A stretch of 64,000 nt of DNA, taken from the NCBI RefSeq assembly GCF_001517975.1, contig NZ_KQ950180.1, positions 911,847-975,846 of the forward strand, written 5' to 3'. Positions 20,683 to 60,599 of this stretch are shown piece by piece. Under the pieces are notes generated by a model. The model was given only the letters and a program-made list of their open reading frames with translations, did not search any database and was not told the DNA's origin. Position 1 is the stretch's first letter. Each line of letters opens with the position of its first letter. Both the position numbers and the translations under genes were made by a program. The stretch comes from Thermobifida cellulosilytica TB100 (GTDB lineage Bacteria; Actinomycetota; Actinomycetes; Streptosporangiales; Streptosporangiaceae).

Positions 20683-20742
20683 GGCGATCCTGTTTCCAGA
20701 GCCATTGGAGCGACCGGGAATGACCTTGGAAACAGGATCGCC
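20683..20742. repeat. 16-bp perfect inverted repeat, GATCNTG palindrome copy 1
   Basis: The arm GGCGATCCTGTTTCCA (20683-20698) is repeated as an exact reverse complement at 20727-20742, with a 28-nt loop. It lies in the 215-bp gap between divergent genes, so it cannot serve as an ordinary terminator for either of them. It shares the core GATCNTG with three other inverted repeats at 32.77, 33.35 and 39.75 kb. Confidence 0.75.
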
Positions 20743-20821
20743 GGTGGCTTCTCTCCCCCGGCACCCCGGGGACTGACCCGGTTCTACCAGGGGCGAACGG
20801 GACACCGAAACGGCGCTGCTG

Positions 20822-20985
20822 TACTGTCTCTAGTGCCGCGGTGCTCGGGAAGTCCGGTGCGAATCCGGACGCGGGACTCGCCACTGTATTCAGGTACTCC
20901 GCCGGTACGACGCCACTGGACACACCAGGTCTGGGAAGGCATCGGCGGGGGATCCCTGTGAGCCAGGAGACCGGCCGCGGTGTTT
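20822..20985 (+). ncRNA. Cobalamin riboswitch controlling btuF-btuC-btuD-fdx
   Basis: Recognised by the ordered conserved blocks of the cobalamin (B12) aptamer: GGGAAGTCCGGTGCGAATCC (20837-20856), CTCGCCACTGT, a second GCCACTGG, TCTGGGAAGG and GAGCCAGGAGACCGGCC near the 3' end. It ends about 40 nt before the btuF start, close enough to mask its ribosome site when adenosylcobalamin is bound. Boundaries are approximate. Confidence 0.92.
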
Positions 20986-21024
20986 GCCCGACTTCCACGA
21001 GTTCCTTGGAAAGGCGGACCACCG

Positions 21025-22038
21025 GTGCACACCCGTGTCCCCCCTCCCCCGTCCCCGCTGCCGCGCCGCTTCCCCCTCCGCGCCCTGCCCCTGGCACTGC
21101 TGGCCCTGACCGCGTGCGGCGACCAGACCCCCGATTCCGGCCCCGCGCCCGCCGCGGCGGCCGTCACCGTGGCCAACTGCGGCCACACCGTCGCACTGGA
21201 GGCGCCCCCGCAGCGCGTCATCACCCTCAACCAGGGGGCGACCGAAATCGTCCTCGCCCTGGGCGCCGAGGAGCAGCTGGTGGGCACCGCCTACCTCGAC
21301 GACGAGGTCAGCGAGGCATGGGCCGACGCCTACGCCCGGGTCCCCGTCCTGTCCGAGGAGTACCCCAGCCGCGAGGCAATCCTGGAGCAGCGCCCCGACC
21401 TGGTCGTCGGCTCCTACGCCAGCGCGTTCACCGACCAGGCCGCGGGCGACCGCGAGTCCCTCGACGGCCTCGGCATCGCCTCCTACCTGTCGCCGTTCGC
21501 TTGCCCCGACGACGCCGACGTCCCGGAGATCAGCTGGGACACCGTCCACCGGCAGATCGAGGAGCTGGCCCTGCTGCTGGGCCGCGAGGAGGAGGGGAAC
21601 GCGCTGGTCGAGGAGCAGCGGGCCGTGCTCGACGAGATCCGCGGCCGTGCCCCCGCCGAGGGGCTGTCCGTACTGTGGTGGGACAACGACACCGACACCC
21701 CGATGGTCGGCGCGGGCGAAGGCGGCCCGCAGCTGATCCTCGACGCGCTGGGCGCCGCCAACGTCTTCGCCGACCTCTCCGGCGAGTGGGCGACGACCAG
21801 CTGGGAGTCCGTTCTGGAAGCCGACCCCGACCTGATCGTCCTCGTGGACGCATCGTGGGACACCGCCGAGGAGAAGACCGCATTCCTCCGCGAGGACCCG
21901 GCGCTGCGCGACCTCACCGCCGTACGGGAGGAGGCGTTCATCACCGTACCCTTCTCCACCAGCACTCCCGGGGTGCGCAACGTGGAGGCCGTGCAGCTGA
22001 TCGACGCCCAGCTGGCCGACGGCGGAGGCCCGCGGTGA
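21025..22038 (+). CDS. btuF: Cobalamin (corrinoid) ABC transporter substrate-binding lipoprotein, BtuF-like
   Basis: 337 residues. The signal peptide ends in lipobox LTAC (LALLALTACGDQ), giving an anchored extracellular binding protein. The Peripla_BP_2 fold is shown by PQRVITLNQGATEIVLALGAEEQLVGTAYLDD and ILEQRPDLVVGSY. The same fold also binds ferric siderophores; the corrinoid assignment rests on the riboswitch and cobalamin neighbourhood. GTG 21025 is preferred because GTG 20980 would lie inside the riboswitch and 21025 has a purine-rich site upstream. Overlaps btuC by GTGA. Confidence 0.85.
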   Translation: MHTRVPPPPSPLPRRFPLRALPLALLALTACGDQTPDSGPAPAAAAVTVANCGHTVALEAPPQRVITLNQGATEIVLALGAEEQLVGTAYLDDEVSEAWADAYARVPVLSEEYPSREAILEQRPDLVVGSYASAFTDQAAGDRESLDGLGIASYLSPFACPDDADVPEISWDTVHRQIEELALLLGREEEGNALVEEQRAVLDEIRGRAPAEGLSVLWWDNDTDTPMVGAGEGGPQLILDALGAANVFADLSGEWATTSWESVLEADPDLIVLVDASWDTAEEKTAFLREDPALRDLTAVREEAFITVPFSTSTPGVRNVEAVQLIDAQLADGGGPR

Positions 22039-23087
22039 GCGTCCTCGTGAAGGCACGGCCCGGTGCCGCACCCCGGCTCACCGTTCTCGTCGGCGCGGCG
22101 GCGCTGGTGCTCAGCGCCGCCCTCGGCGTGGTGATCGGCACCGCGGACCTGTCCGTGGCCACCGTGTTCCGGGCGGTCGCCGCGCAGCTCGGCGCCGAGA
22201 CCGGAATCGACACCCTGACCCGGCACATCGTCGTCGACCTGCGCGCGCCCCGGGTGGCGGCCGCGATACTGACGGGCGCCGGGCTCGCCGTGTGCGGCGG
22301 GGTCCTGCAGTCCCTCACCGGCAACCCCCTCGCCGACCCCTACCTGCTCGGCCTGTCGTCGGGGGCGCTGCTCGGCGTCTCGCTGAGCCTCTTTTTCGGG
22401 CTGGGCGCCGCCGGGGTGGCGGGATTCGGCGCGACGTCGGTGGCCGCGTTCCTCGGCTCGCTGGCCGCGCTGGCGCTGGTGTTCGCCCTGGCCTCCGCGC
22501 GGACGGGGGCACTGCCGACGTCGCGGCTGGTCCTCGCCGGGATCGCGGTGGGCCAGCTCGGCAGCGCGGTCGCCTCCGGCCTCGTCCTGGCCTCCGACCG
22601 GGACGCCGCCCGCAGGATCACCGAGTGGACGCTCGGCTCGGTCGCCGGGGCACGCTGGAACTCCCTCGCCGTCACCGCCTCGGTGGTGGCGGTGACCCTC
22701 GCCGTCGTCCTCTGGTACTCCCGGGACCTGGACTCCTTCGCGTTCGGGGAGCGCGCGGCGACGAGCCTCGGCACCGACGTGGCCGGCGTGCGCCGGGTGC
22801 TGTACTGCGCGGTGTCGCTGTGCACCGCGGTCCTCGTCGCGCAGGCGGGGATCGTCGGCTTCGTCGGCTTGGTGGTCCCCCACATCGCCCGGTTCCTCAC
22901 CGGCGCGGGGCACCTGCGCCTGCTGCCGGCGAGCGCGCTGCTGGGCGCGCTGCTGCTGGTGTGGACCGACGTGCTGTGCCGCAGCGCGCTGCCCGACCGG
23001 GAGCTTCCGCTGGGGATCGTCACCGCCGTGCTCGGCGTGCCCGTGTTCGTCGTCCTGTTCCGCCGTCGGGGAGGCGCCCGTGGCTGA
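22035..23087 (+). CDS. btuC: Cobalamin ABC transporter permease, BtuC-like
   Basis: 350 residues, FecCD/BtuC family with about ten helices. Signature segments are GGVLQSLTGNPLADPYLLGLSSGALLG and VGFVGLVVPHIARFLTGAGH. It forms a homodimeric channel for corrinoid import with BtuD and BtuF. GTG 22035 overlaps the btuF stop and its own stop overlaps btuD by 8 bp, so the three are translationally coupled behind the cobalamin riboswitch. Confidence 0.87.
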   Translation: MSVLVKARPGAAPRLTVLVGAAALVLSAALGVVIGTADLSVATVFRAVAAQLGAETGIDTLTRHIVVDLRAPRVAAAILTGAGLAVCGGVLQSLTGNPLADPYLLGLSSGALLGVSLSLFFGLGAAGVAGFGATSVAAFLGSLAALALVFALASARTGALPTSRLVLAGIAVGQLGSAVASGLVLASDRDAARRITEWTLGSVAGARWNSLAVTASVVAVTLAVVLWYSRDLDSFAFGERAATSLGTDVAGVRRVLYCAVSLCTAVLVAQAGIVGFVGLVVPHIARFLTGAGHLRLLPASALLGALLLVWTDVLCRSALPDRELPLGIVTAVLGVPVFVVLFRRRGGARG

Positions 23088-23886
23088 CCTCCGTCCACCC
23101 GAGGTGGCGCTCCGCCGGGCCTCGTGGACCGTCGACGGCACTCCCGTCCTCCGGGAGGTCACGTTCACCGCTCCGGCGGGGCGGACGACCGGGCTCATCG
23201 GCCCCAACGGGTCGGGCAAGACCTCCCTGATCTCCCTGCTGGCCCGGTGGACCCGGCCGACGTCGGGGAGGGTACTCCTCGACGGGGTGGATGCGGGCTC
23301 CGTTCCGCTGCGGGAGTTCGCGCGACGCGTCGCCGCCCTGGAGCAGCACACCGCGACCGAACTCGACCTGACCGTCCGACAGGTCGTCGCGATGGGACGC
23401 GTCCCGCACAGCCGCCGTCTCGGCTTCGACCTGGACGGCGGGGACGACCCCGTGGTCGCCCGCGCCCTCGCCCGCGTCGGCGCGGCCGGGCTCGCGGACC
23501 GCCACTGGCACACCCTGTCCGGTGGGGAACGCCAGAAGGTGCAGGTGGCGCGGGTCTTGGCGCAGGAGCCGCGGGTCCTACTCCTCGACGAACTGGCGAA
23601 CCATCTCGACCCGGCGGCCGGACTGCGGCTGCTCGACCTGGTGCGCGGGCTCGGACTCACCACGATCGGCTCGTTCCACGACCTCAACCTGGCCGCGATG
23701 TTCTGCGACCACCTGGTCGTGCTGCACCGCGGACGCGTGGTCGCCGAGGGAACGCCGCGGCAGGTCCTCACGCCCGCCCTGCTGGGCGAGGTCTACGGGG
23801 TGGAGGCGGTGGTGGACGACCACCCCGCCACCGGCGGTCCGCTCGTGGTGATGTGCGGCGCGGCCAGAGAGAAGGAGGAGGGATGA
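23080..23886 (+). CDS. btuD: Cobalamin ABC transporter ATP-binding protein, BtuD-like
   Basis: 268 residues. Walker A GPNGSGKTS (41-49), signature LSGGERQKVQVARVL and a Walker B reading LLLDELANHLD, where the usual Pro-Thr after DE is Leu-Ala; the catalytic Glu is kept. SFHDLN holds the switch His. It powers BtuC. GTG 23080 lies inside the 3' end of btuC and the stop overlaps the next gene by ATGA. Confidence 0.87.
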   Translation: MADLRPPEVALRRASWTVDGTPVLREVTFTAPAGRTTGLIGPNGSGKTSLISLLARWTRPTSGRVLLDGVDAGSVPLREFARRVAALEQHTATELDLTVRQVVAMGRVPHSRRLGFDLDGGDDPVVARALARVGAAGLADRHWHTLSGGERQKVQVARVLAQEPRVLLLDELANHLDPAAGLRLLDLVRGLGLTTIGSFHDLNLAAMFCDHLVVLHRGRVVAEGTPRQVLTPALLGEVYGVEAVVDDHPATGGPLVVMCGAAREKEEG

Positions 23887-24626
23887 GCGCACCGGAGTGG
23901 ATTCTCCTCACTGCCCCCGGCGACCTGGCCGTTGACCAGGAGGAGGTGCTCCGGCCACTGGCGGAGCGGCTCGCGGAGCGCTTCCCCGGCGTCCGCGTCC
24001 GCACCGCGCTGCTGCTGGGGAACGGGCCGACCGTCACGGAGGTGCTGGACGAGGCCGCCGCCGCGGGGGTGGCGGCCGTGACGGTCGTACACCCGCAGAC
24101 GGTGGAGGACCGGGCGACCGCCGCGTGGCTGCGCCGGGTGGTCAGCCACTGGCTGCGGGAGGCGGACCCCGAGCGGGTGCCGCTGGTCCGGCTGGCACCG
24201 CCGCTGACGGGCGTGTCCGTGCTCGCCGACGCGGTGGGGCGGGCGGTCGAGGAAGCGGCGGAGTTCCCCGCGACGGGCGCGCCGCTGCTGTCGCCGGCGT
24301 GGCTGGCCCCACCCGACTTCACCCGCCACCTGCTGCTGTGCCGGGGGCCGCGCTGCTGTGCGCTGGGCGCGGAACGGGTCCACGTGGAACTGGTCCGCGC
24401 CGTGGAGCGGCACGGCGCGGCCGAGGACGACCACGTGCTCCTCACCCGCACCGGCTGCCTGTTCCCGTGCACGAACGGCCCGGTCGGCGTGGTCTACCCG
24501 GACGGCGTCTGGTACCGGCTGGCCGATGCGGACACCGTCGACCGGGTCGTCCGCGACCACCTCGTCGGGGGTGTGCCGGTCGCCGACGCCGCGTTCGCCC
24601 GCCGGCCGTCGGGGCCCGGGGAGTGA
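23883..24626 (+). CDS. [2Fe-2S] thioredoxin-fold ferredoxin domain fused to a CbiX-like N-terminal region
   Basis: 247 residues. The C-terminal half (from about residue 140) has the LLLCRGPRCCALGAE and TRTGCLFPCTNGPVGVVYPDGVWY segments, the Cys layout of thioredoxin-like [2Fe-2S] ferredoxins. The N-terminal half (WILLTAPGDLAVDQEEVLRPLAERLAERFPGVRVRTALL) resembles sirohydrochlorin-chelatase (CbiX/CbiK) folds but lacks the usual HGS metal-binding His at the start. It is last in the riboswitch-controlled btuFCD operon (ATGA overlap). Likely an electron carrier for corrinoid reduction or CobG; that role is inference. Confidence 0.75.
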   Translation: MSAPEWILLTAPGDLAVDQEEVLRPLAERLAERFPGVRVRTALLLGNGPTVTEVLDEAAAAGVAAVTVVHPQTVEDRATAAWLRRVVSHWLREADPERVPLVRLAPPLTGVSVLADAVGRAVEEAAEFPATGAPLLSPAWLAPPDFTRHLLLCRGPRCCALGAERVHVELVRAVERHGAAEDDHVLLTRTGCLFPCTNGPVGVVYPDGVWYRLADADTVDRVVRDHLVGGVPVADAAFARRPSGPGE

Positions 24627-24633
24627 GCCGGGG

Positions 24634-25425
24634 TCAGTCCGCAGCGGCCCGGCGCAGCAGGTAGGTGTCCATCACCCAGCCCCGGGCCGCGCGGGCCCGC
24701 TCCCGGGCGGCCCGGACGGCGTCGAGGACCTCGCCGAGCCGTCCCGCCACCAGCTCCTCGTGTTCGGTGCCGAGGTTGGCCCCCCACCACAGGTCCCAGG
24801 CGTCACCGTCCAGGTCGGCGCAGGCCAGACCGCCGTCGAGCATCACCACCAGGTTGTCGGCACCGGAGGCGACGTCGGCGGCCAACCGCCGGCCGGTGGT
24901 CACCGTGACCGGGCCGCCGATACGGTTGAGCACCAGCCGGTGCCGGGCCGCGAGCAGCTGGACGCTGCTCACCCCGGGGATTACCCGGTAGTCCAGGTCC
25001 ACCCCGCCGACGGTGCGGATCTGCTCCACCACCCGGATCGTGCTGTCGTAAAGGCTCGGGTCGCCCCACACCAGGAAGCCGACGGTGTTGCCGGGCCGGG
25101 TGTGCTCGACGACGGCGCGCGCGTAGGCGCGGGCCCGGGCGGCGTGCCAGTCCCGGACCTCCGCACCGTAGACGCGGTCGGTCGCGGGGGCGCGGTCGCG
25201 GGGCGGGTCGGGCACCGTGACGACCCGGTAGCCGTCTCCGGTGATGTGGCGGCGGCAGATCTCCTCCCGCAGCGCCACCAGGTCCCCGGTGCCCGCCCGG
25301 CCGGCCTCCGCCTCCTTGTCGGCGACGAGGAAGACGTCGACCTCGTTGAGGGCGTGCACCGCCTCGACGGTGAGCTGGTCGGGGCCGCCCGGTCCGATAC
25401 CGATGAGCAGGGCCCTGCGGGTCAT
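24634..25425 (-). CDS. cobF: Precorrin-6A synthase (deacetylating)
   Basis: 263 residues, tetrapyrrole methylase fold: LLIGIGPGGPDQLTVEAVHALNEVDVFLVADK at the N-terminus (SAM-binding GxGxG), WGDPSLYDSTIRVVEQI and RVIPGVSSVQLLAARHRLVLNRIG. CobF methylates C-1 of precorrin-5 with loss of the C-20 acetyl as acetate and occurs only in the aerobic pathway, agreeing with cobG here. The ATG overlaps the cobN stop by 4 bp, so the two share the cobN riboswitch message. It converges tail-to-tail, 7 bp apart, with the [2Fe-2S] gene. Confidence 0.93.
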   Translation of the reverse strand: MTRRALLIGIGPGGPDQLTVEAVHALNEVDVFLVADKEAEAGRAGTGDLVALREEICRRHITGDGYRVVTVPDPPRDRAPATDRVYGAEVRDWHAARARAYARAVVEHTRPGNTVGFLVWGDPSLYDSTIRVVEQIRTVGGVDLDYRVIPGVSSVQLLAARHRLVLNRIGGPVTVTTGRRLAADVASGADNLVVMLDGGLACADLDGDAWDLWWGANLGTEHEELVAGRLGEVLDAVRAARERARAARGWVMDTYLLRRAAAD

Positions 25426-28400
25426 GGGCGGCCCGTCCCCCGGTCCTCCAGGTCACCCTCGACGTCCAGGTAGACCTGGCGCAGCGCGTCCATCGTCGCC
25501 GGGTCGGGCTCCTCCCACAGGCCGCGGTCGGCGGCCTCGGAGAGCCGCTCCACGATGCCGCGCAGCGCCCACGGGTTGGCCTCGCGCAGGAACTCCTGGT
25601 TCTCGGCGTCCAGCACGTAGGTCTGGGCGAGCGTCTCGTACATCCAGTCGGCGACCACCCCGGCGGTCGCGTCGTAGCCGAACAGGTAGTCGACGGTTGC
25701 CGCCAGTTCGAACGCGCCCTTGTAGCCGTGCCGGCGCATCGCCGCCAACCAGCGGGGGTTGACCACGCGGGACCGGAACACGCGGGCGGTCTCCTCCCGC
25801 AGCGACCGGGTGCGCACCCGGTCGGGGGTGGTGGAGTCGCCGATGTAGGCCTTCGGGTCGGCGCCGGTGAGGGCGCGCACGGTGGCGACCATGCCGCCGT
25901 GGTACTGGAAGTAGTCGTCGGAGTCGGCGATGTCGTGCTCGCGGGTGTCGGTGTTCTTCGCGGCCACCGCGATCCGCCGGTAGTTGGCGCGCATGTCCTC
26001 CGCGGCGGGTTCGCCGTGCAGGTCGCGGCCGTAGGCGAAACCGCCCCACGCGGTGTAGACCTCGGCGAGGTCGGCGTCGGTGCGCCAGTTACCGGAGTCG
26101 ACGAGCTGGAGGAGTCCCGCGCCGTAGGAGCCGGGCGCGGAGCCGAAGACACGCCGCACCGCGCGGTCGGCGTCGCCGTGCTCGGCGAGGTCGGCGCGCA
26201 CGTGGGCGCGCACGTAGTTGTCCTCGTCCGCTTCGTCCAGCTCCGCGACCATGCGGAAGGCGTCGTCGAGCATCGCGACGACGTGCGGGAAGGCGTCCCG
26301 GAAGAACCCGGAGATGCGGACGGTGACGTCGATGCGGGGACGGCCCAGCTCCTCCAGCGGGACGACGGCCAACTCCCGCACGCGGCGGGACTCCTCGTCC
26401 CACTCGGGGCGCACCCCGATGAGCGCCAGCACCTCGGCGATGTCGTCGCCGGAGGTGCGCATGGCCGAGGTGCCCCACACCGACAGGCCCACCGAACGCG
26501 GGTACTCGCCGGTCTCGGCCCGGTACCGGTCGATCAGGGCGTCGGCCAGCGCGGCCCCCGTCTCGTAGGCGAGGCGGCTGGGCACGGCGCGCGGGTCGAC
26601 GGTGTAGAAGTTGCGGCCGGTCGGCAGCACGTTGACCAGGCCGCGCAGCGGCGACCCGGACGGCCCCGCCGGAATGTAGCCGCCGTCCAGGGCGTGCAGC
26701 ACGGCGTCGAGCTCCTGGCCGGTCCCGGCCAGGCGCGGCACGACCTCCTCGGCCGCGAACCGCAGGACACGGACGACGTCGGGCGCGGTCTCCCCGAGCC
26801 GGTCGGCGACGGCGCGGGCCGCCTCCGGGGCCCAGCCGGCCTCTTCCATGCCCTCCACCAGGGCGCGGGCGCGCGCCTCGGCCGCGTCGACCTCGGCGAG
26901 GTCCCCGGTGTCGCCGTCCAGGCCAAGCGCGCGGCGCAGCCCCGGAACCGCCCCGGCCTTCCCGCCCCACACCTGGGAGGCGCGCAGGATCGCCAGCACC
27001 AGGTTGACCCGGGCCTCCCCGGTGGGCGCCTCACCCAGCACGTGCAGTCCGTCGCGGATCTGCGCGTCCTTGACCTCGCACAGCCAGCCGTCGACGTGCA
27101 GCAGGAAGTCGTCGAACTCGGCGTCGTGCGGGCGTTCGGACAGGCCCAGGTCGTGGTCGAGTTTCGCGGCCTGGATCAGGGTCCAGATGCGGGCGCGGAT
27201 CGCGGGCAGTTTCGCCGGATCCATCGCGGCGATGTTGGCGTGCTCGTCGAGGAGCTGCTCCAGTTTGGCGATGTCGCCGTAGGATTCGGCGCGCGCCATC
27301 GGCGGGACGAGGTGGTCGACGATGGTGGCGTGGGCGCGCCGCTTGGCCTGCGCGCCCTCCCCCGGGTCGTTGACCAGGAACGGGTAGACCAGCGGCAGCG
27401 AGCCGACGGCCGCGTCGGTGGCGCACGCCGCGGACAGTGCGGCGTTCTTACCGGGCAGCCACTCCAAGGAGCCGTGTTTGCCGAGGTGGATGATGGCGTG
27501 CGCGCCGAAGCCGCGTTCCAGCCACCGGTAGGCGGCCAGGTAGTGGTGCGGCGGCGGCAGGTCGGGGTCGTGGTAGATCGCCACCGGGTTCTCTCCGAAG
27601 CCGCGCGGCGGTTGGATCATCAGCACCACGTTGCCCGCCTGGAGGGTGGCCAGCACGATGTCGCCGTCGTCGACGAAGAGCGTGCCGGGCGGCTCCCCCC
27701 AGTGTTCGGCCATCGCGTCGGTGAGTTCGGCGGGCAGGTCAGCGATCCACTCGCGGTAGCGTTCGGCGGGGATGCGGACCGGGTTGCCCGCCATCTGCTC
27801 GGCGGTCAGCCACTCCTCGTCCTGGCCCCCGGCTTCGATGAGCGCGTGGATGAGCGCGTTGCCCGCCTCGGTGTCGTCGGCGAGGTCCAGCCCGGGCAGT
27901 CCGTCGCCCAGGTCGTACCCGGCGTCGCGCAGGGCCCGCAGCAGCCGCACCGCCGAGACGGGAGTGTCCAGGCCCACAGCGTTACCGACGCGGGAGTGCT
28001 TGGTGGGGTAGGCCGACAGCACGACCGCGATGCGGCGCTGCGCCGGAGGGGTGTGGCGCAGGCGGGCGTGGGCGACGGCGATGCCGGCGACGCGGCGGCA
28101 CCGTTCGGGGTCGGTGACGTAGTGGGGCAGGCCCTCGTCGTCGAACTCCTTGAAGGAGAACGGCACGGTGATGATGCGGCCGTCGAACTCGGGGACGGCG
28201 ATCTGGGAGGCGGAGTCCAGGGGGGAGGTGCCGTCGTCGGAGGCCGCCCACTGGTCGCGCCCCCAGGTCAGGCAGAGCGCCTGGAGGATCGGGATGTCAA
28301 GCCGCGCCAGTTCGCCGACGTCCCACGCCTCGTCGTCGCCTCCGGCCGAGGCCGCGGCCGGGCGGGTCCCCCCGGCGGCCAGCACGGTGACCACCAGTGC

Positions 28401-29042
28401 GTCGAGGGTGCCGAGTGTGGCGAGGAGGTCCGCGGGTGCGCCGCGCAGCGAGGAGCAGTAGAGGGGGACCGCGACGGCTTCGCCGGTGGCGTCGACGGCG
28501 TCGGCCAGGTCGTGCACGAAACGGGTGTTTCCGCTGGCCTGGTGGGCGCGGTAGTACAGGATGCCGACCCGGGGCAGTCCGTCGCGCTCCGGGGCGGGCC
28601 GCTCCGACAGGCCCCACTCGGGCAGTTCGGTCGGCGGGTCGAAGCCCTCACCGCCCAGCAGCACGGTGTCGCTGAGAAACGCGTGCAGCGCGGCGAGGTT
28701 GGCGGGACCACCATAGGCCAGGTACCGGTGGGCCTCGGCGGCGGTGCCGAGGGGCACGGTGGAGTGGCTCATCAGCTCCGCGTCGGGGGTCTGCTCGCCG
28801 CCGAGCACCACGACGGGCACGCCATGCGCCAGGACCCGGTCGAGGCCCTCCTGCCAGGAGCGGACGGACCCGAGGATGCGCACGACCACCAGGTCGGCGC
28901 CGTCGAGGAGGGCGCGGAGCGAACCGGGGCCGTCGCCGGCCACGTCGAGCCGCGACGGGTTGCCCCAGACGTAGTCCGCGCCGCTGGCACGGGCCGACAG
29001 CAGGTCGGTGTCGGAGGTGGAGAGCAGCGCTACGCGGGGCAT
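25422..29042 (-). CDS. cobN: Aerobic cobaltochelatase large subunit
   Basis: 1206 residues, the normal CobN length. CobN inserts Co(II) into hydrogenobyrinic acid a,c-diamide in an ATP-dependent complex. Conserved blocks include [53 protein letters not shown] and [20 protein letters not shown]. CobN itself has no P-loop; the ATPase partner here is most likely the ChlI/ChlD-like protein at 35.7 kb rather than CobS/CobT. ATG 29042 is chosen because the frame further upstream runs through the riboswitch. The first gene of a cobN-cobF transcript. Confidence 0.93.
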   Translation of the reverse strand: [1206 protein letters not shown]

Positions 29043-29162
29043 CGGCGGCCCGCCCAGAAACCGACGACCATCGAAGACAGCGGGAACGCCGGGGGTGGTG
29101 CGGGGCGCGGCACGGAACAGGCCATAGCCAATGTCTCCAAAACCCTCGTGGACATGACGTGC

Positions 29163-29333
29163 CGTGGCCGGTCTCCTGGCTGACGAGTCGCTGCCGGCGG
29201 GCCGACCTTCCCGGGTGGTCACCCAGTGGTCCCCGGGGTGGTCTCCCAACCCGGGTGAGGCCCGACGACTCCTCGATCACAGTGGCGAGGGCCGCGCCGG
29301 TTTCGCACCGGCTTCCCGTCACCACGGCGTGCC
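29163..29333 (-). ncRNA. Cobalamin riboswitch controlling cobN-cobF
   Basis: On the minus strand, reading from 29333 down: GGGAAGCCGGTGCGAAACC, CTCGCCACTGTG, GACCACTGGGTG, CCGGGAAGGTCGG and TCAGCCAGGAGACCGGCC in the order of the cobalamin aptamer. It precedes cobN by about 120 nt. Boundaries approximate. Confidence 0.92.
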
Positions 29334-29334
29334 C

Positions 29335-29365
29335 ACCATAGCGCACCAGTTGAGGGCGTATGCAA
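29335..29365 (-). promoter_or_regulatory. Candidate promoter for the cobN riboswitch transcript
   Basis: Minus-strand TTGCAT (29365-29360) and TATGGT (29340-29335) with a 19-bp spacer would start RNA just at the 5' edge of the riboswitch. The elements fall within 35 bp of the divergent cobG start, so both promoters must overlap. Confidence 0.4.
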
Positions 29366-29369
29366 CCAT

Positions 29370-32745: not shown

Positions 32746-32766
32746 CGGGCGGGGACCGAAAACGTC

Positions 32767-32826
32767 GGTGATCATGTCCCCAGCGCCACCGGCCCGGCCG
32801 ATTGCGGCGCTGGGGACATGATCACC
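32767..32826. terminator. 21-bp perfect inverted repeat after cobIJ, GATCNTG palindrome copy 2
   Basis: The 21-nt arm at 32767-32787 (core GATCATGTCCCC) is exactly reverse-complementary to 32806-32826, with an 18-nt loop. Placement 21 bp after the cobIJ stop suggests a terminator, though no T-run follows and the arms are longer than usual. It shares GATCNTG with three other palindromes. Confidence 0.7.
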
Positions 32827-32863
32827 AGGTTTTCCGGGGGTAGATCCCTGTCCGGTCTCCGGG

Positions 32864-33051
32864 TGGCTTGGGTGGTGGAGGATTTTGGCCCTTCCGGTCT
32901 GCCTCAGCCGCGAGGCGCGGCAGCCCTGACCGCTCCCCGGGTGCGGGAGGGGTTGCCGGGCGGCGGGTATCCAATGGCAAAGTGCTACAGGAGGGTGGCC
33001 ATCCCTCCGAGACCGGAGCAAGCGTCAAGGCTGCCGGGCCTCCCGGCCGAA
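32864..33051. repeat. Direct repeat copy A (188 bp) with internal dyad
   Basis: About 90 % identical to copy B at 33089-33277, including a ~50-bp block without differences; most differences are A/G or C/T transitions. Within the unit, a 5' arm reading GCGGCAGCCCTGACC is mirrored near the 3' end by an imperfect reverse complement, so each copy can fold into a long hairpin. The copies are separated by 37 bp. Confidence 0.85.
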
Positions 33052-33088
33052 ACCAACCAGCCACCCCACCACCTGCCCGGCCCCCGAA

Positions 33089-33277
33089 TGGCTTGGGCTG
33101 GTGGAGGATCTCAACCCTTCCGGTCTGCCTCAGCCGCGAGGCGCGGCAGCCCTGACCGCTCCCCGGGTACGGGAGGGGTTGCCGGGCGGCGGGTATCCGG
33201 TGGCGAAGCGCTGCGGAAGGATGGCCATCCCTCCGAGACCAGAGCGGGGGTCAGGGCTGCCGGGCCTCCCGGCCGAA
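33089..33277. repeat. Direct repeat copy B (189 bp) with internal dyad
   Basis: Second copy of the unit at 32864-33051. Here the dyad is better preserved: GGCAGCCCTGACC in the 5' arm faces GGTCAGGGCTGCC in the 3' arm. No transposase or target-site duplication is visible, so a non-autonomous palindromic element is one possibility. Confidence 0.85.
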
Positions 33278-33346
33278 GCAGACGGAGACTGTCAGCGCAG
33301 CACGGAACCATCCGCAGCCTGGAGACAACCCCCGCCCGCCACCCCG

Positions 33347-33410
33347 CGATGATCTTGACACGAGGGGGCACCAAACCGCAGATCATGGCCCCTTTCTGTC
33401 AAGATCATCG
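33347..33410. terminator. 14-bp perfect inverted repeat at the 3' end of cobM, GATCNTG palindrome copy 3
   Basis: CGATGATCTTGACA (33347-33360) is exactly reverse-complementary to TGTCAAGATCATCG (33397-33410). A second inner stem (GGGGCA with TGGCCCC) can form inside the loop. The cobM TGA (33405-33407) is embedded in the right arm. Likely a terminator for the minus-strand cobL-cobM message. Confidence 0.7.
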
Positions 33411-34175
33411 GGGTGTGGTGCCGCGGTCGCGGGCCGGGTCGTACAGGTGCGAACCGACAACCTGGCAGACGTCCAGCTCCCGGCTGGCCACGGCCGGACC
33501 CACCAGGATGACCGCGGCCTTGCGCAGCCCGGCCGCCTCCACCTGGTCGGCGATGTCGGCGAGGGTACCGCGCAGCACCAGCTCGTCGGGGCGGGTCGCG
33601 TGCGCGACCACCGCCACGGGGCAGTCGGCCCCGTACTCGGGCACCAGCTCCTCGGCGAGGGCGCGGACCCGCCGAATCGCCAGGTGCAGCACGAGAGTGC
33701 CGCGCACCTTCGCGACGTTCGCCAGCGCCTCCGACTCCGGCATCCGCGTGGAGCGGGCCTGGGTGCGGGTGAGCACCACGGTCTGCACCAGTTCGGGAAC
33801 CGTCAGCTCGGTGCCGAGCAGGGCCGCCGCCGCCGCGTACGCGGGCACACCGGGGGTGACGTCCCAGGCCACGCCCGCCGCGTCGAGCCGCCGGGTCTGC
33901 TCGGTCAGGGCGCTGTAGACCGACGGGTCGCCGGAGCAGAGCCGGACCGCGTCCAGACCGCGCCGGTCGGCCTCGACCAGGTGGGCGGTGATCTGGTCGA
34001 GGTCGAGGTGCTGGGTGTCCACCAGTTCGGCGTCGGCGGGGCAGTGCGCCAGGATCTCGGCGTCGATGTAGGTGCCCGCGTACAGGCAGACGGGGGTGGT
34101 GCGCAGCAGCTCCACCGCGCGCAGCGTCAGCAGGTCGGCGGCTCCGGGGCCGGCTCCCACAAAGTGGACGGTCAT
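33405..34175 (-). CDS. cobM: Precorrin-4 C11-methyltransferase
   Basis: 256 residues, tetrapyrrole methylase: VHFVGAGPGAADLLTLRAVELLRTTPVCLYAGTYID at the start, LCSGDPSVYSALTEQTRRLDAAGV and VTPGVPAYAAAAALLGTELTVPEL. It adds the C-11 methyl to precorrin-4. ATG 34175 overlaps the cobL stop by 4 bp. Its stop codon sits inside the arm of a perfect hairpin. No riboswitch precedes the cobL-cobM pair. Confidence 0.93.
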   Translation of the reverse strand: MTVHFVGAGPGAADLLTLRAVELLRTTPVCLYAGTYIDAEILAHCPADAELVDTQHLDLDQITAHLVEADRRGLDAVRLCSGDPSVYSALTEQTRRLDAAGVAWDVTPGVPAYAAAAALLGTELTVPELVQTVVLTRTQARSTRMPESEALANVAKVRGTLVLHLAIRRVRALAEELVPEYGADCPVAVVAHATRPDELVLRGTLADIADQVEAAGLRKAAVILVGPAVASRELDVCQVVGSHLYDPARDRGTTPR

Positions 34176-35389
34176 GGCTGGTCCTCCTGATCTGTCTTGG
34201 TCGCGGCCCACTGGACGACCGGGCGGGCCGGGCTCCATCCGGTGAAGGCGCCCAGCGGCGCGGCCCGTTCCACCGCCAGGCGGGTCAGGTCGCCGCCGTG
34301 CCGCTTCCACCGCTCCACCAGGGCGGCCTCCGTCTCCAGCGTCACCGCGTGGACCACCATCCGGCCGCCGGGCCGCAGCGCCGACCAGCACAGGTCCAGC
34401 ACGGCCGGGTCGGAGGCCCCGCCGCCGACGAACACCGCGTCCGGCGACTCCAGGCCGGCCAGTGCCTCGGGGGCGGCGCCGTGGACCACGCGCAGGGACG
34501 GCACACCCAACCGGGCGGCGTTGCGGGCGATGCGGCGCACCCGTTCGGGGTGCCGCTCGACCGCGACGGCCCGGCACCGGGGGTCGGCGCGCAGCCACTC
34601 CACGGCCACCGACCCCGCTCCGGCCCCGACGTCCCACAGCAGCGCCCCGGGACGCGGGCCGAGCGCGCACACCGCGGCGATCCGCAGCTCCCGCTTGGTG
34701 AGCTGGCCGTCGTGGTCGAAGACCTCGTCGGGCAGTCCGGGCGTGACGGGATGCCCGCCGCTGCCGGCGACCTCCACGCACACCACGTTCAGCGCGGGCG
34801 CGGCCCGCCCGTCCCATTCCGCGGCGGTGGCGTCGTGCCGGGTCTCATCCGCGGCGCCGAGGTCGGCCAGGACGGTCATCCGGCTGTCGCCCAGGCCGTC
34901 CTCCACGAGCCGCGCGGCCACCAGGGCGGGGGTGGTGCCGTCGGAGGAGAGCACGACCAGCCGCCGTCCGGGGGTGAAGTAGCGGCGCACCGCGTCGACG
35001 TCGCGTCCCACCAGCGTCACCACGTCCACGGACTCCGCGCTCCACCGCATCCGGGCCCGGGCCAGGGCAACGGAGCTCACCGCGGGCAGGATCCGCACCC
35101 TTTCCGCACCGAGCAGCCGCACCAGGGTGGTGCCGATCCCGGACAGCAGGGGGTCGCCGGAGGCGAGGACCGCCACCCTGCGGCCGCGGTACCGATCCAG
35201 CATCGCCGGAAGGCCGCTGAGCAGCGGAGAGGGCCAGGGTTCCCGTACTGCCCCGGTGTCGGGGACCAGGGCCAGGTGCCGGGCGCCGCCGATGACCACG
35301 TCGGCGTCGCGGATCGCCGCGCGGGAGGCAGGCGGCAGCCCCTCCCAGCCGTCGGCGCCCACGCCGACCACGGTGACCGGTGTTTCCAT
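34172..35389 (-). CDS. cobL: Precorrin-6Y C5,15-methyltransferase (decarboxylating)
   Basis: 405 residues with two domains: an N-terminal CbiE-type methylase (VTVVGVGADGWEGLPPASRAAIRDADVVIGG; LASGDPLLSGIGTTLVRLLG) to about residue 200, and a C-terminal CbiT-type SAM domain (FDHDGQLTKRELRIAAVCALGPRPGALLWDVGAGAGSVAVEW). CobL methylates C-5 and C-15 and decarboxylates the C-12 acetate. ATG 35389 is chosen by domain start; it lies about 90 bp from the divergent chlID riboswitch. Confidence 0.93.
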   Translation of the reverse strand: METPVTVVGVGADGWEGLPPASRAAIRDADVVIGGARHLALVPDTGAVREPWPSPLLSGLPAMLDRYRGRRVAVLASGDPLLSGIGTTLVRLLGAERVRILPAVSSVALARARMRWSAESVDVVTLVGRDVDAVRRYFTPGRRLVVLSSDGTTPALVAARLVEDGLGDSRMTVLADLGAADETRHDATAAEWDGRAAPALNVVCVEVAGSGGHPVTPGLPDEVFDHDGQLTKRELRIAAVCALGPRPGALLWDVGAGAGSVAVEWLRADPRCRAVAVERHPERVRRIARNAARLGVPSLRVVHGAAPEALAGLESPDAVFVGGGASDPAVLDLCWSALRPGGRMVVHAVTLETEAALVERWKRHGGDLTRLAVERAAPLGAFTGWSPARPVVQWAATKTDQEDQP

Positions 35390-35477
35390 GGCGGGTAACC
35401 CTAACCGACCGGGGAAGTGACCCCGCCCTCCGGGCACCCGCACCGCCACCGGCTAGACTCGGCCGCGGCAGAACCAC

Positions 35478-35642
35478 CGAGGTGCCCCCACGGGGATAAT
35501 CGGGAAGCCGGTGCGAATCCGGCACAGGCCCGCTGCGGTGACCTGGGAGCCGCCGATCACGCGCTTCGCGCAACCACTGGACGCGAGTCCGGGAAGGCGA
35601 TCGGACGGTGTCGATCAGGAAGTCCGAAGACCGGCCTCGGCA
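35478..35642 (+). ncRNA. Cobalamin riboswitch controlling chlID-cobO-cobB
   Basis: Conserved blocks in order: CGGGAAGCCGGTGCGAATCC (35501-35520), CCCGCTGCGGTGACCTGGGAGCC, AACCACTGGACGCGAGTCCGGGAAGG and CAGGAAGTCCGAAGACCGGCC. The GCTGCGGTGA block replaces GCCACTGT but is a common variant. It ends about 45 nt before the chelatase gene. Confidence 0.9.
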
Positions 35643-35689
35643 CGGCTGCCGCTTTTGCCCACCCCCAGCGGGAGCCTGTGGAGGAACGC

Positions 35690-37684
35690 GTGCACGTGTA
35701 CCCGTTCAGCGCCGTCGTCGGTTCCGACGACCTGATGCTGGCCCTGATCCTGACCGGTGTTAGCCCCGAGATCGGGGGTGTGCTCGTCCGGGGTGAGAAG
35801 GGCACTGCGAAGTCGACGGCGGTGCGCGCGCAGGCCGCCCTGCTCCCCCCGGTCACCGTGGTCGCCGACTGCCGGTTCTCCTGTGATCCCGCCGCCCCCG
35901 ACCCCGCCTGCCCGGACGGGCCGCATCCCCCGTCGGCCGCCTCTGTCAGCCGCCCGGTGCGTCTGGTGGAGCTGCCGGTGGGTGCGGGCGAGGACCGGGT
36001 GGTGGGCTCCCTGCACCTGGAGAAGGCCCTGTCGGGCGGCGGCGTCGAGTACGAGCCGGGGCTGCTGGCCCGCGCCCACCGCGGCATCCTCTACGTCGAC
36101 GAGGTCAACCTGCTCCACGACCACCTGGTGGACCTGCTGCTCGACGCGGCGGCCATGGGCCGCGCCACCGTGGAGCGCGACGGGGTGTCGCTCACCCACG
36201 CCGCGCGGTTCAGCCTGGTGGGGACGATGAACCCGGAGGAGGGCGAGCTGCGTCCGCAGCTGCTGGACCGGTTCGGCCTGTCGGTGGAGGTCGCCGCGCC
36301 CCGCGATCCGGCGCTGCGGGTGGAGATCGTGCGGCGGCGGCTCGCGTTCGACGCCGACCCGGAGGGCTTCACCGCCGCCTACGCCGCGGCGGAGCGGGAG
36401 CTGTCCGAGCGCGTGGCGGCGGCGCGCGCCCGCCTGCCGGAGGTGGTGCTCGGCGAGGACGCGCTGCTCGCCGTCGCCGAAGTGTGCGCCGCGTTCGACG
36501 TGGACGGCATGCGCGCCGACCTGGTGTGCGCCCGCGCGGCCGTGGCCCACGCCGCCTGGTGCGGCCGCACCGAGGTCACCCGGGCCGATGTGCGCGCCGC
36601 CGCCCGCCTCGCCCTGCCGCACCGGCGTCGGCGCAACCCGTTCGACAGTCCCGGCATGGACGAGGACCTGCTCGACGAGGTGCTCGGCGACGACCCGGAT
36701 CCGGGTCCGGACGATCCGGGCGGGGGAGGCGGCCCCGCCCCGGAGGACGGACCGGACTCCCCCGTCCCGTCCGACGCGGGCTCCGCTTCCTCCGCGCCCG
36801 CGGACCCCTCCGGTGCTTCCGCCCCGCCCGACGCCGAGCCCCGGCCCGACGTTCCGGCGCCGGTGTCCGTCACCGCCCCGGAGGAGGCGTACCGTGCCCG
36901 GCTGTTCACGGTCGCCGGAACCGGCAACGGCACGCTGGGCCGCCGTTCGCGGGCGGTCACCACGGCGGGCCGCACCGTCGGCGACGTTCCGGCGGACCGG
37001 GGGACGGGACCGATCCACCTGGCCGCCACGGTCCGTGCCGCCGCGCTGCGCTCCGCCGCGTCCCGACCCGCCCGGCTGTCCCTCGTCCCCGCCGACCTGC
37101 GGCGGGCCGTGCTCGAGGGCCGGGAGTCCAACCTGGTGCTGCTGTGCGTGGACGCCTCCGGCTCCATGGCTGCCCGGCGGCGCATGGCCCAGGTCAAGAC
37201 GGCTGTCCTCGCCTTGCTGCTGGACGCCTACCGCAGACGCGACCGGGTGGGGCTGGTGACCTTCCGGGACCGGGACGCCACCCTGGTGCTGCCGCCCACC
37301 GGGTCGGTGGACGTGGCGGCGGCCCGCCTGCGGGAGCTGCCCGCCGGGGGCCGCACCCCGCTAGCCGAGGGCCTGCTGGAGGCGGCGGAGACGCTGCGGC
37401 GGGAGCGGCTGCGCGACCCCGACCGGCGCGCCCTGCTCGTGGTGGTCACCGACGGTCGGGCCACCGCCGGACCCGCCGCGGTGGAACGCTCCCTGCGCGC
37501 CGCCGACCACCTGGCCCGCGAGGGGGTCGCCGCGCTGGTCATCGACTCTGAGACGGGCCGGTTCCGGATGGGGCTGGCCGCCGCCCTGGCCCGCCGCATG
37601 GGGGCCGAGTACACCCACGTCGGCGAGGTCAGCGCCGAATCGATCACGTCCGCCGTTGCCGAGGCCACTGGGAGGGCCGCCTGA
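35690..37684 (+). CDS. ChlI/ChlD-like AAA+/von Willebrand fusion, probable cobaltochelatase ATPase subunit
   Basis: 664 residues. The N-terminal AAA+ (ChlI/BchI) domain has Walker A GEKGTAKST (residues 35-43), a Walker B at LYVDEVNLLHDHLVDLLLDAA and sensor region SLVGTMNPEEGELRPQLLDRFGL. A Pro/Asp/Gly-rich acidic linker (about 325-410) leads to a von Willebrand A domain with the MIDAS motif CVDASGSM near residue 483. This is the Mg-chelatase I+D plan in one chain; with cobN and cobO next door and no chlorophyll genes it most likely replaces CobS/CobT. GTG 35690 has GGAGGAA upstream; GTG 35678 is an alternative. Confidence 0.87.
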   Translation: MHVYPFSAVVGSDDLMLALILTGVSPEIGGVLVRGEKGTAKSTAVRAQAALLPPVTVVADCRFSCDPAAPDPACPDGPHPPSAASVSRPVRLVELPVGAGEDRVVGSLHLEKALSGGGVEYEPGLLARAHRGILYVDEVNLLHDHLVDLLLDAAAMGRATVERDGVSLTHAARFSLVGTMNPEEGELRPQLLDRFGLSVEVAAPRDPALRVEIVRRRLAFDADPEGFTAAYAAAERELSERVAAARARLPEVVLGEDALLAVAEVCAAFDVDGMRADLVCARAAVAHAAWCGRTEVTRADVRAAARLALPHRRRRNPFDSPGMDEDLLDEVLGDDPDPGPDDPGGGGGPAPEDGPDSPVPSDAGSASSAPADPSGASAPPDAEPRPDVPAPVSVTAPEEAYRARLFTVAGTGNGTLGRRSRAVTTAGRTVGDVPADRGTGPIHLAATVRAAALRSAASRPARLSLVPADLRRAVLEGRESNLVLLCVDASGSMAARRRMAQVKTAVLALLLDAYRRRDRVGLVTFRDRDATLVLPPTGSVDVAAARLRELPAGGRTPLAEGLLEAAETLRRERLRDPDRRALLVVVTDGRATAGPAAVERSLRAADHLAREGVAALVIDSETGRFRMGLAAALARRMGAEYTHVGEVSAESITSAVAEATGRAA

Positions 37685-38298
37685 TGCCCAAGGGACAGCC
37701 GACCGTCGTGCCCGACGACGGGCTCACCACCCGCCAGCGCCGCCACCGGCCGCTGCTCATGGTGTACACCGGTGACGGCAAGGGGAAGTCCACCGCCGCG
37801 TTCGGGTTGGCGCTGCGCGGCTGGAACCAGGGCTGGCGCATCGCGGTGTTCCAGTTCGTGAAGTCCGCGAAGTGGCGCATCGGGGAGCAGACCGCGTTGG
37901 AGGCGCTCGCCGGGGTGCACGCCGAGAAGGGCGTGGGCGGTCCGGTCGAGTGGCACAAGATGGGGTCGGGCTGGTCGTGGTCGCGCAAGGCGGGCACGGA
38001 GGCCGACCACGCGGCCGCGGCTGCGGAGGGCTGGGCCGAGGTCAAGCGCCGCCTCGCCGAGCAGCGGCACGACCTGTACGTGCTCGACGAGTTCACTTAC
38101 CCCATCGCCTGGGGCTGGGTCGACGTCGACGACGTGGTGGCGGCCCTGCGCGACCGCCCCGGGCACCAGCACGTGGTGGTCACCGGCCGCCGCGCCCACC
38201 CCGCGCTGCTGGAGGCGGCCGACCTGGTCACGGAGATGACGAAGGTGCGGCACCCGATGGACGCGGGCCAGAAGGGGCAGCGCGGCATTGAGTGGTGA
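37684..38298 (+). CDS. cobO: Cob(I)yrinic acid a,c-diamide adenosyltransferase
   Basis: 204 residues, CobA/CobO family. P-loop TGDGKGKSTAAFGLALRG near residue 29, GWRIAVFQFVKSAKW and LYVLDEFTYPIAWGWVD. It transfers the adenosyl group of ATP to Co(I) of the corrinoid, which needs a reduced cobalt made by a separate flavoprotein. ATG 37684 shares one base with the chelatase stop (TGATG). The cobB frame begins inside its 3' end. Confidence 0.94.
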   Translation: MPKGQPTVVPDDGLTTRQRRHRPLLMVYTGDGKGKSTAAFGLALRGWNQGWRIAVFQFVKSAKWRIGEQTALEALAGVHAEKGVGGPVEWHKMGSGWSWSRKAGTEADHAAAAAEGWAEVKRRLAEQRHDLYVLDEFTYPIAWGWVDVDDVVAALRDRPGHQHVVVTGRRAHPALLEAADLVTEMTKVRHPMDAGQKGQRGIEW

Positions 38299-39715
38299 GC
38301 CCCCGTACGACGATGCGGTGACGCCGCTGCCCCGGCTGGTGGTCGCCGCCCCCGTCTCGGGTTCCGGCAAGACCACGGTGGCCACCGGGCTCATGGCGGC
38401 GCTGCGTGCCGCCGGCTACGAGGTGTCGGGGCACAAGGCCGGACCGGACTACATCGACCCCGGCTACCACGCCCTGGCCACCGGGCGGCCGGGCCGCAAC
38501 CTCGACGTGCACCTGCACGGTGAGGAGCTGCTGGCCCCGCTGCTGCTGCACGGCGCGCGCACCCCGCGGCCGGCCGACCTGGCCGTGGTCGAGGGCATGA
38601 TGGGCCTGTACGACGGGCGGCTCGCGGGACGCGGGTTCGCGTCCACCGCGCACGTGGCCACCGTGCTCGACGCCCCCGTGGTGCTGGTGGTGGACGTGTC
38701 CCACACGTCGCGGTCGGCGGCGGCAGTGGTGGCGGGCATGGCGGTGTTCGACCGCCGGGTGCGGGTCGCCGGGGTTGTGCTGAACCGGGTGGGGTCGGAC
38801 CGGCACGCCGCCGAGGTCGCCTCCGCGATGGAGGAGATCGGTGTTCCGGTGCTGGGGGCGCTGCGCCGCGACGACGGGATCGCCGCCCCCTCGCGGCACC
38901 TGGGGCTGGTGCCCGCCCAGGAGCGGGCCGAGTCGGCGGCGGTCCTGGACCGGTTGGCCGAACGCATCGCCGCGCAGGTGGACCTGGCCGCGGTGGTGGA
39001 GGTCGCGCGGTCCGCGCCGCCGCTGCGCGCACGGCCGTGGTCGCCGGAGGCGGCGCTCGCCGCGGCGGGTTTCCCGCCCGCCGCCCGCCGGGCGGACGGG
39101 CCGGTGGTGGCGGTGGCCGGGGGCAGGGCGTTCACCTTCCGCTACGCCGAGACCGAGGAGTTGCTGCGCGCCGCGGGCTGCCGCCCGGTGGTGTTCGACC
39201 CGACGGCCGACGCCGCCCTGCCCGACGGCACCGCCGGAATCTATCTGGGCGGTGGCTTCCCCGAGGTGTACGCGGCGGAGCTGGCGCAGAATACGGCGCT
39301 GCGCGCGGCCTTGCTGGAGGCGGTACGGTCGGGGGTGCCGACGGTCGCCGAGTGCGCGGGGTTGCTGTACCTGTGCCGCGAGGTGGACGGAGCGCCGATG
39401 GTGGGGGTGCTCGACGCGGTGGGGGCCATGACGCCGAAGCTGGCCTTGGGCTACCACTCGGCGCTGGCCCCGGAGGAGACCCTGCTGGCGGAGGCGGGAG
39501 ACCGGGTGACCGGGCACGAGTTTCACCGCACCGGTGTCACGTCCACCGGGGAGCGGGCGGGCCCGGCGTGGCTGCTGGACGGCCGGCCTGACGGTTTCTC
39601 CGCTGATCCGGCGGGCCTCGGCCGTCCCACGCTGCACGCCTCCTACCTGCACACCCACTGGGCGGGCTGTCCGCGGGCCGCGGTCCGGTTCGCGGCGGCG
39701 GTCCACGCCCGGTGA
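38288..39715 (+). CDS. cobB: Hydrogenobyrinic acid a,c-diamide synthase
   Basis: 475 residues. The N-terminal dethiobiotin-synthetase-like ATPase carries APVSGSGKTTVATGLMAALR and KAGPDYIDPGYHALATGRPGRNLD; the C-terminal class-I glutaminase has nucleophile Cys in TVAECAGLLYLCRE and catalytic His near the end (HASYLHTHWAG). It amidates the a and c side chains using glutamine and ATP, just before cobalt insertion. The listed start is TTG 38288 within cobO; GTG 38318 is an in-frame alternative, and neither has a strong ribosome site, consistent with coupling to cobO. Confidence 0.92.
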   Translation: MSGEPPYDDAVTPLPRLVVAAPVSGSGKTTVATGLMAALRAAGYEVSGHKAGPDYIDPGYHALATGRPGRNLDVHLHGEELLAPLLLHGARTPRPADLAVVEGMMGLYDGRLAGRGFASTAHVATVLDAPVVLVVDVSHTSRSAAAVVAGMAVFDRRVRVAGVVLNRVGSDRHAAEVASAMEEIGVPVLGALRRDDGIAAPSRHLGLVPAQERAESAAVLDRLAERIAAQVDLAAVVEVARSAPPLRARPWSPEAALAAAGFPPAARRADGPVVAVAGGRAFTFRYAETEELLRAAGCRPVVFDPTADAALPDGTAGIYLGGGFPEVYAAELAQNTALRAALLEAVRSGVPTVAECAGLLYLCREVDGAPMVGVLDAVGAMTPKLALGYHSALAPEETLLAEAGDRVTGHEFHRTGVTSTGERAGPAWLLDGRPDGFSADPAGLGRPTLHASYLHTHWAGCPRAAVRFAAAVHAR

Positions 39716-39745
39716 CCGGGAGCGGGTACCGGATCGGTTGGCTTA

Positions 39746-39805
39746 ATGATCTTGGCGGGAGTGGGGTGTCACCCGCGGTTGCGCCCCCGCTACCGTCAAG
39801 ATCAT
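39746..39805. terminator. Inverted repeat between convergent cobB and cobK, GATCNTG palindrome copy 4
   Basis: ATGATCTTG (39746-39754) is reverse-complementary to CAAGATCAT (39797-39805); inner GC-rich segments (GCGGGAGTGGGG facing GCGCCCCCGC) extend the fold. The right arm contains the cobK TGA (39802-39804), exactly as the cobM stop lies in copy 3. Probably a bidirectional terminator. Confidence 0.65.
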
Positions 39806-60561: not shown

Positions 60562-60599
60562 GGCGGCGCGCCCGGGAGGACGGACCCGGGCGCGCCGCC
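60562..60599 (+). terminator. 15-bp perfect GC hairpin between ABC-2 permease and kinase genes
   Basis: The arm 60562-60576 (GGCGGCGCGCCCGGG) is exactly complementary to 60585-60599, with an 8-nt loop, directly after the permease stop and 30 bp before the kinase start. It could terminate or attenuate read-through. Confidence 0.65.

Follow-up and report, generated by a model that had tools for sequence, protein, structure and literature searches.

The 64,000-nt stretch of the Thermobifida cellulosilytica TB100 genome analyzed here (the window; the genome, coded G000, comprises 4.43 Mb in 19 contigs) contains four long palindromes that fall into two repeat families, types A and B. As judged from sequence comparisons, these palindromes are probably bidirectional 3'-end hairpins, either terminators or barriers at RNA 3' ends, that lack a U-tract and form genome-specific repeat families. 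The repeat families, the covariation of their stems, their placement 3' of stop codons, their enrichment between convergent genes and the exchange of hairpins at one gene junction were all observed, and the role that the palindromes would most likely play is a terminating or protecting one in both directions. The four palindromes are:

Site 1, 20683..20742, no strand, type A palindrome GGCGATCCTGTTTCCA...TGGAAACAGGATCGCC with a 16-bp perfect stem
Site 2, 32767..32826, no strand, type A palindrome with a 21-bp perfect stem, in a convergent gap
Site 3, 33347..33410, no strand, type B palindrome CGATGATCTTGACA...TGTCAAGATCATCG with a 14-bp perfect stem
Site 4, 39744..39807, no strand, type B palindrome with a 9-bp outer stem and inner stems

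The original prediction had placed inverted repeats at these sites, each with GATCNTG near its outer end, and both the stems (16, 21, 14 and 9 bp plus inner stems) and the motif (GATCCTG, GATCATG, GATCTTG and GATCTTG) are present, beyond the shuffled background. The window has four perfect stems of at least 14 bp with loops of up to 40, compared with a mean of 0.12 and a maximum of 1 in 25 dinucleotide shuffles, and two perfect stems of at least 16 bp, compared with none in the shuffles. The four stems of at least 14 bp exclude site 4 and are those of sites 1–3 and an unrelated one at 60562–60599, a perfect hairpin of 15 bp that consists of G and C only, lies in a tandem gap and is unlike the A and B families. 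Predicted RNA folding of ten copies from this genome (six A and four B) gives -28.7 to -52.4 kcal/mol, with z of -2.8 to -9.4.

Type A (sites 1 and 2; ~56–60 bp) has a consensus of roughly GATCATGkCCCCAGkGCCAT N14 ATGGCnCTGGGGmCATGATC, ~60 bp long, while type B (sites 3 and 4; 58–64 bp) has the 64-bp consensus CGATGATCTTGAC...GTCAAGATCATCG. Apart from the outer GATCNTG and the overall size, the two types have little in common; a single family for all four sites, as had been proposed, was rejected, and A and B require separate models. The pattern TGATCNTGN{15,45}CANGATCA matched seven places in the own genome and none with the backward control; six of the seven are palindromes, and the seventh, C4:30538, appears to match by chance. 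Models R1 (type A) and R2 (type B), built from six and four own-genome copies, respectively, and searched over G000, found 30 and eight distinct places at E<=0.01. Read by eye, the 30 places of R1, which also responds to any long hairpin, comprise 11 clear A copies, 14 copies of an A sub-type in mosaic repeats and five looser hairpins; seven of the eight R2 places are B copies, while C5:201269 is unlike the family. The ends of type A drift with compensation: GGCCATG/CATGGCC and GATGGTG/CACCATC occur in place of GATCATG/CATGATC, with most pairing kept. The genome-wide searches found further copies, and because these are spread over many contigs of the own genome, the link to the cobalamin island made in the original prediction is incidental.

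The copies lie mostly at the ends of genes, as called with our own small codon-usage caller rather than a standard annotation. In T. cellulosilytica, seven of 11 A copies and six of seven B copies (13/18) begin within 21 nt 3' of a called stop, and four B copies overlap the stop codon, with the TGA of TGATC. For the other genomes, copies of Actinorugispora endophytica and Nocardiopsis potens were sampled, and 20 copies each of G011, G024, G124 and G129 were drawn from the listed matches (the palindromic ones for G124 and G129); the counts omit copies that lay within a called gene or at the edge of a locus (6/58 in A. endophytica, 3/41 in N. potens, 2/20 in G124, 1/20 in G129, 3/20 in G011 and 0/20 in G024). 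The 52 placed copies of A. endophytica are in 29 convergent, 23 tandem and 0 divergent gaps, compared with 39/182/64 for the other gaps of the same loci (p=3e-10), and the 38 copies of N. potens are in 18/18/2, compared with 30/123/45 (p=3e-5). The nearest stop is at a median distance of 22 nt in both genomes and within 50 nt for 42/52 and 31/36 copies, respectively. Because tight operon gaps could inflate the convergent excess, the background was redone with gaps of at least 60 nt, and the excess persisted in A. endophytica (background 21/112/63, i.e., 21/196 convergent; p=4e-11) and N. potens (22/73/45; p=1e-4). Against the same kind of background, convergent excess was also found in G024 (13/6/1 vs. 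0/12/6, p=2e-5, or 1.6e-5 before rounding), G011 (10/6/1 vs. 2/11/2, p=0.012), G129 (8/8/3 vs. 0/8/5, p=0.01) and G124 (10/7/1 vs. 5/11/9, p=0.024). The scarcity of divergent gaps is clear in A. endophytica (p=4e-8) and N. potens (p=4e-4) and weak in G024 and G124. In copy-free gaps, other perfect stems of at least 9 bp are commoner between convergent genes (10/26 and 9/22) than between divergent ones (3/47 and 4/34), with 25/124 and 19/76 for tandem gaps.

All four sites are identical in the sister genome G002, and the ortholog of site 3 in G001 is of type B. At the junction of site 4, G001 has an A-like palindrome of ~59 bp that begins at the stop codon (-30.9 kcal/mol), and G003 has an unrelated 18-bp perfect stem (-38.3 kcal/mol) that is within the gap and does not adjoin the stop. 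Such a succession of different hairpins in one slot would be expected of a terminator. The orthologs of the convergent genes flanking sites 2 and 3 are separated by ~3.2 kb in G001 (C1:4968389–4971563), compared with ~0.6 kb in the window.

The inner stem is genome-specific and homogenized within each genome, while the ends are alike: the mean identity of inner-stem positions 11–24 is 0.79–0.91 within each of six genomes and 0.20–0.66 between them (7–55 copies each), whereas identity over the outer ten positions is largely fixed by the search pattern. Pairing is kept despite this variation. In 48 distinct copies of A. endophytica, 98.5% of cells are paired and 13 of 27 stem pairs show two-sided changes, compared with 3.8 +/- 1.2 in shuffles (0/500 as high) and 0–3 in slid registers; part of this covariation reflects the common ancestry of the copies. 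The pair just outside TGATC is GC in 21, CG in 18, UA in 5, AU in 1 and other in 3 of the 48 copies. Covariation and further copies, on which the original prediction had staked itself, were thus both found.

The unit shared among copies is ~64–75 bp, as pairs of copies align over a median of 72–74 nt of 558-nt windows, with a 95th percentile of 96–101 and a longest alignment of 562 in A. endophytica. An identical 58-bp core is found at seven A. endophytica loci, with 30-nt flanks that are either different or alike on a single side (L220 and L298 on the left; L220 and L229, nearly, on the right). Such one-sided matches are what exchange between copies would leave, and recombination or conversion between copies is perhaps the homogenizing process.

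Among 60 genomes, the own included, R1 and R2 have matches at E<=1e-4 in 11 and 16 genomes, respectively. The strict B pattern TGATCTYGACN{34,42}GTCRAGATCA occurs in nine of 393 class genomes with 1 to 85 copies each, and its backward control in none: in the own family, three copies in the own genome, seven in G002, three in G145, 85 in G198 (A. endophytica) and 48 in G011, and in family f16, 18 in G089, 16 in G135, 10 in G144 and one in G053. It is absent from G003, which is of the same genus. The carriers named among the 116 stretches listed include A. endophytica and Murinocardiopsis flavida (G010), both of the Nocardiopsidaceae, N. potens, Allosalinactinospora lopnorensis, an actinomycete metagenome-assembled genome (MAG) and Frankiaceae MAGs, with one match each in a deltaproteobacterial and a Peptococcaceae MAG. 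The Peptococcaceae match pairs only at the 10 patterned pairs. The deltaproteobacterial one (L244 near 7910–7965) is an isolated TGATCTTGAC palindrome whose perfect stem has 20 bp (14 bp inward from the T and 6 bp further out) and may be a real hairpin, chance or contamination being the alternatives.

A looser pattern, CGNTGATCN{44,50}GATCANCG, matches in 328/393 genomes, most of which have 0–20 matches, with outliers in G024 (170), G198 (129), G011 (100), G124 of family f36 (56) and G129 of family f21 (38). This pattern is weak alone, as ordinary matches look coding among those listed, and only the outliers count; the backward control, which had matches in a single genome, is of little value because the word is favored by codon bias. 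By eye, 35 of the 37 matches listed for G124 are one palindrome type, palindromes, mainly of two types, make up 28 of the 38 in G129, and four of the five listed for G179 (family f39) are palindromes. The architecture is thus found in f16, f21 and f36 at least, in addition to the own family, with differing stems. The size is 57–58 bp in 119/123 pattern matches, the pattern itself allowing 54–62, and the ends CGnTGATC...GATCAnCG recur across genomes. At six G011 loci (L151, L153, L155, L159, L163 and L167), B copies are within larger, partly inverted shared repeats of ~100–1220 bp.

We propose that RNA polymerase arriving from either gene of a convergent pair, or at the end of a tandem operon, would meet a ~60-bp palindrome behind the stop codon and that the RNA of either strand would fold into a near-identical and very stable hairpin; given this near-identity, one element can therefore serve both genes. 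The hairpin may then end transcription without a U-tract by I-shaped intrinsic termination, or, where Rho has ended transcription, may instead block 3' exonucleases. Each carrier genome would have copied or homogenized one or a few hairpin types over tens of loci, while the CGnTGATC-like end recurs. Streptomyces terminators are reported to have few Us and long hairpins (PMC12207403), and 353 of 535 structured 3' ends of Streptomyces clavuligerus are without Us, with I-shaped termination and Rho-dependent transcript ends as the explanations discussed (PMC8269248). By analogy, either I-shaped termination or a barrier at Rho-dependent ends is the likely mode here. The original prediction had set the palindromes apart from ordinary terminators, a distinction that is wrong or unproven given that most copies are directly 3' of stops and mostly in convergent or tandem gaps.

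Several observations weigh against a role as bidirectional 3'-end hairpins. Like canonical intrinsic terminators, the palindromes form a stable hairpin shortly 3' of the stop (though not at site 1, and farther away in G124), but the U-tract is missing: the 15 nt that follow the 58-bp core contain 4% and 11% T, the 10 nt behind the copies of G129 and G124 contain 7–10%, and the longest T-run is 0–1 in 185/198 hairpin sides, while Streptomyces terminators are reported with 3–4 U per 10 nt, more than here (PMC12207403). Placement also has exceptions, as five of the 18 A and B copies in the own genome are not close to a called stop, G124 copies are farther from it (median 91 nt, 3/17 within 50), site 1 and a few copies elsewhere are in divergent gaps (3/19 in G129), the scarcity of divergent gaps is not significant in G011 (p=0.59) or G129 (p=0.22), and one divergent-gap copy of G002 is decayed in G000. 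Moreover, template switches that correct palindromes could be a partial source of covariation in related copies, and the recurring ends are not needed by a plain terminator.

The palindromes could also be mobile elements, similar to miniature inverted-repeat transposable elements (MITEs) or repetitive extragenic palindromes (REPs), that are moved by a transposase and prefer to insert behind genes, in which case any effect on termination would be secondary. Identical cores at separate loci, genome-specific bursts and the patchy spread of the strict pattern among the 393 sampled class genomes, including its absence from G003, speak for such an element, which we nevertheless consider unlikely. 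In four copy sets, no direct flank repeats of 5–10 bp were found as a sign of target-site duplication; direct flank repeats of 2 and 4 bp in A. endophytica (19 each) are above shuffles but are no such sign, because they fit the self-palindromic CCGG flank. The Y1/IS200-type transposase domain PF01797, the only transposase family searched for, is present in eight of 30 genomes, i.e., in carriers G001, G010, G024 and, barely over the cut-off, G011 as well as in four of 16 others (G006, G007, G008 and G018), and is absent from 10 of 14 carriers (G000, G002, G013, G026, G145, G198, G089, G135, G144 and G053). In addition, the two bases just outside TGATC covary with each other, as would not be predicted from insertion. 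REPs driven by REP-associated tyrosine transposases (RAYTs) were rejected on the absence of Y1 in those carriers, the 85-copy genome among them, and insertion with target duplication was rejected on the copy flanks.

A site for a DNA-binding protein, such as a nucleoid or chromosome-organizing factor, that is kept behind genes to avoid promoters would explain the palindrome by protein binding instead of RNA folding. CGnTGATC-like ends in several families with otherwise different stems and the narrow size range are as such a site would have them, although the ends are alike in part because the search patterns selected for them. Type A, however, swaps GATCATG for GGCCATG or GATGGTG on both arms; these swaps and the inner stems that differ between genomes indicate that pairing, and therefore not one sequence, is kept, so we regard a protein site as improbable. 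Least plausible by far are DNA-uptake-like words that make up terminators in pairs, as those of Neisseria do. The arms do make hairpins behind genes, a use described for uptake sequences (PMC1852404), and TGATCTTGAC outside strict palindromes exceeds permuted words (4 vs. 0.08 in 447 kb of A. endophytica and 1 vs. 0.02 in 311 kb of N. potens), but the absolute number is tiny, as true uptake words occur by hundreds to thousands. By eye, the four single TGATCTTGAC of A. endophytica are two arms of imperfect palindromes, one coding-looking match and one lone half. An uptake-word system was rejected, single words being almost absent outside palindromes.

Compared with known systems, the palindromes of types A and B come close to the U-lacking (I-shaped or HS-U-lack) hairpins of GC-rich actinomycetes (PMC8269248, PMC12207403), with which they share a strong GC-rich hairpin near the gene end and few or no Us; they differ in that sequence, size and CGnTGATC-like ends are common to the copies of a genome, and no such sequence family was found in the parts of those reports used here. 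REP elements have a conserved GTAG/GGAG-type end. Like REPs and bacterial interspersed mosaic elements (BIMEs) with RAYTs, the copies are many short, dispersed, intergenic palindromes that are genome-specific and often behind genes, but their fully paired unit is longer (60–64 bp), the GTAG-type end is absent and most carriers lack Y1. The original description as a REP-like or structured-RNA family thus held for the dispersed, REP-like occurrence and the covarying stems and failed for REP proper. With the uptake-sequence terminators of Neisseria and Pasteurellaceae they share a repeated word in inverted pairs that forms gene-end hairpins (PMC1852404), but single words are almost absent here. 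The stem-loop repeat families of Cozzuto et al. (2008; PMC2267715) are likewise repeated, mostly intergenic and built on a common stem-loop; a term search of the main text of that paper yielded neither Streptomyces nor Thermobifida, and the A and B families were not found in it. We regard the A and B families as a new variant among gene-end stem-loop repeats, and the features tested exclude membership of REPs and uptake words. No report of these hairpin sequences in actinomycetes was found in the literature searched, which did not cover most subscription journals.

Site 2 is 21 nt 3' of the stop of a tetrapyrrole methylase gene (+), the stop codon of another tetrapyrrole methylase gene (-) coincides in part with the TGATC end of site 3, and site 4 separates convergent CbiA/CobB-like (+) and precorrin-6x reductase CbiJ/CobK-like (-) genes and overlaps the - strand stop codon. 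Site 1 is in a divergent gap between a (-) gene, which starts 76 nt away and resembles flavin mononucleotide (FMN) reductase weakly, below Pfam's cut-off, and a cobalamin riboswitch (+) ahead of a periplasmic-binding-protein gene. Two of the eight convergent junctions in the window carry family hairpins, and the other six have perfect stems of 2–11 bp. The window has three cobalamin riboswitches (20822–20993, 29149–29341 and 35463–35653). An Rfam search of the window and 12 loci at the gathering score found only cobalamin riboswitches and a tRNA and no family for the hairpins, and a further Rfam search gave sub-threshold matches only, mostly to microRNA models. Between sites 2 and 3 lies a further repeat:

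Dispersed mosaic repeat, 32862..33300, no strand, a tandem duplication

Its two 182-nt copies are 90% alike at a spacing of 226. In the own genome, 90 pieces match the repeat, counting itself; many pieces are found in G002, some in G001 and none among four G003 matches. The A sub-type, with a GGGACAGAACAGACGCTTGTTCTGTCCC-like inner part, is inside related mosaics of ~100–700 bp in the own genome (L034, L036–L039, L058–L062, L066, L068, L069 and L071). At L055 (G000:C1 near 898,900), the stretch GGACCATCCCCACGTGCGTGGGGAGCACCG, which resembles a type I-E CRISPR (clustered regularly interspaced short palindromic repeats) repeat, is within ~5 kb of two copies of the A sub-type.

Transcript ends with few or no Us in GC-rich actinomycetes still lack a settled explanation. 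The near-identical natural hairpins, tens to more than 100 in each carrier genome, with built-in differences and compensations, are a ready test set, and comparison of same-genus genomes with and without them reveals which hairpins replace one another. Expression work in actinomycetes may also profit from them as short terminators that act in both directions. A new mechanism of spread would mean a genome-wide homogenizing process that acts on gene ends. More tentatively, and with some doubt on our part, many actinomycetes may share a class of gene-end hairpins, CGnTGATC...GATCAnCG of ~60–64 bp, the inner stem of which is both rewritten and homogenized in each genome independently, through copying or conversion without RAYTs. 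If so, this class would be an unrecognized, concertedly evolving and bidirectional termination system that is free of U-tracts and has its own recognition factor or mechanism of spread.

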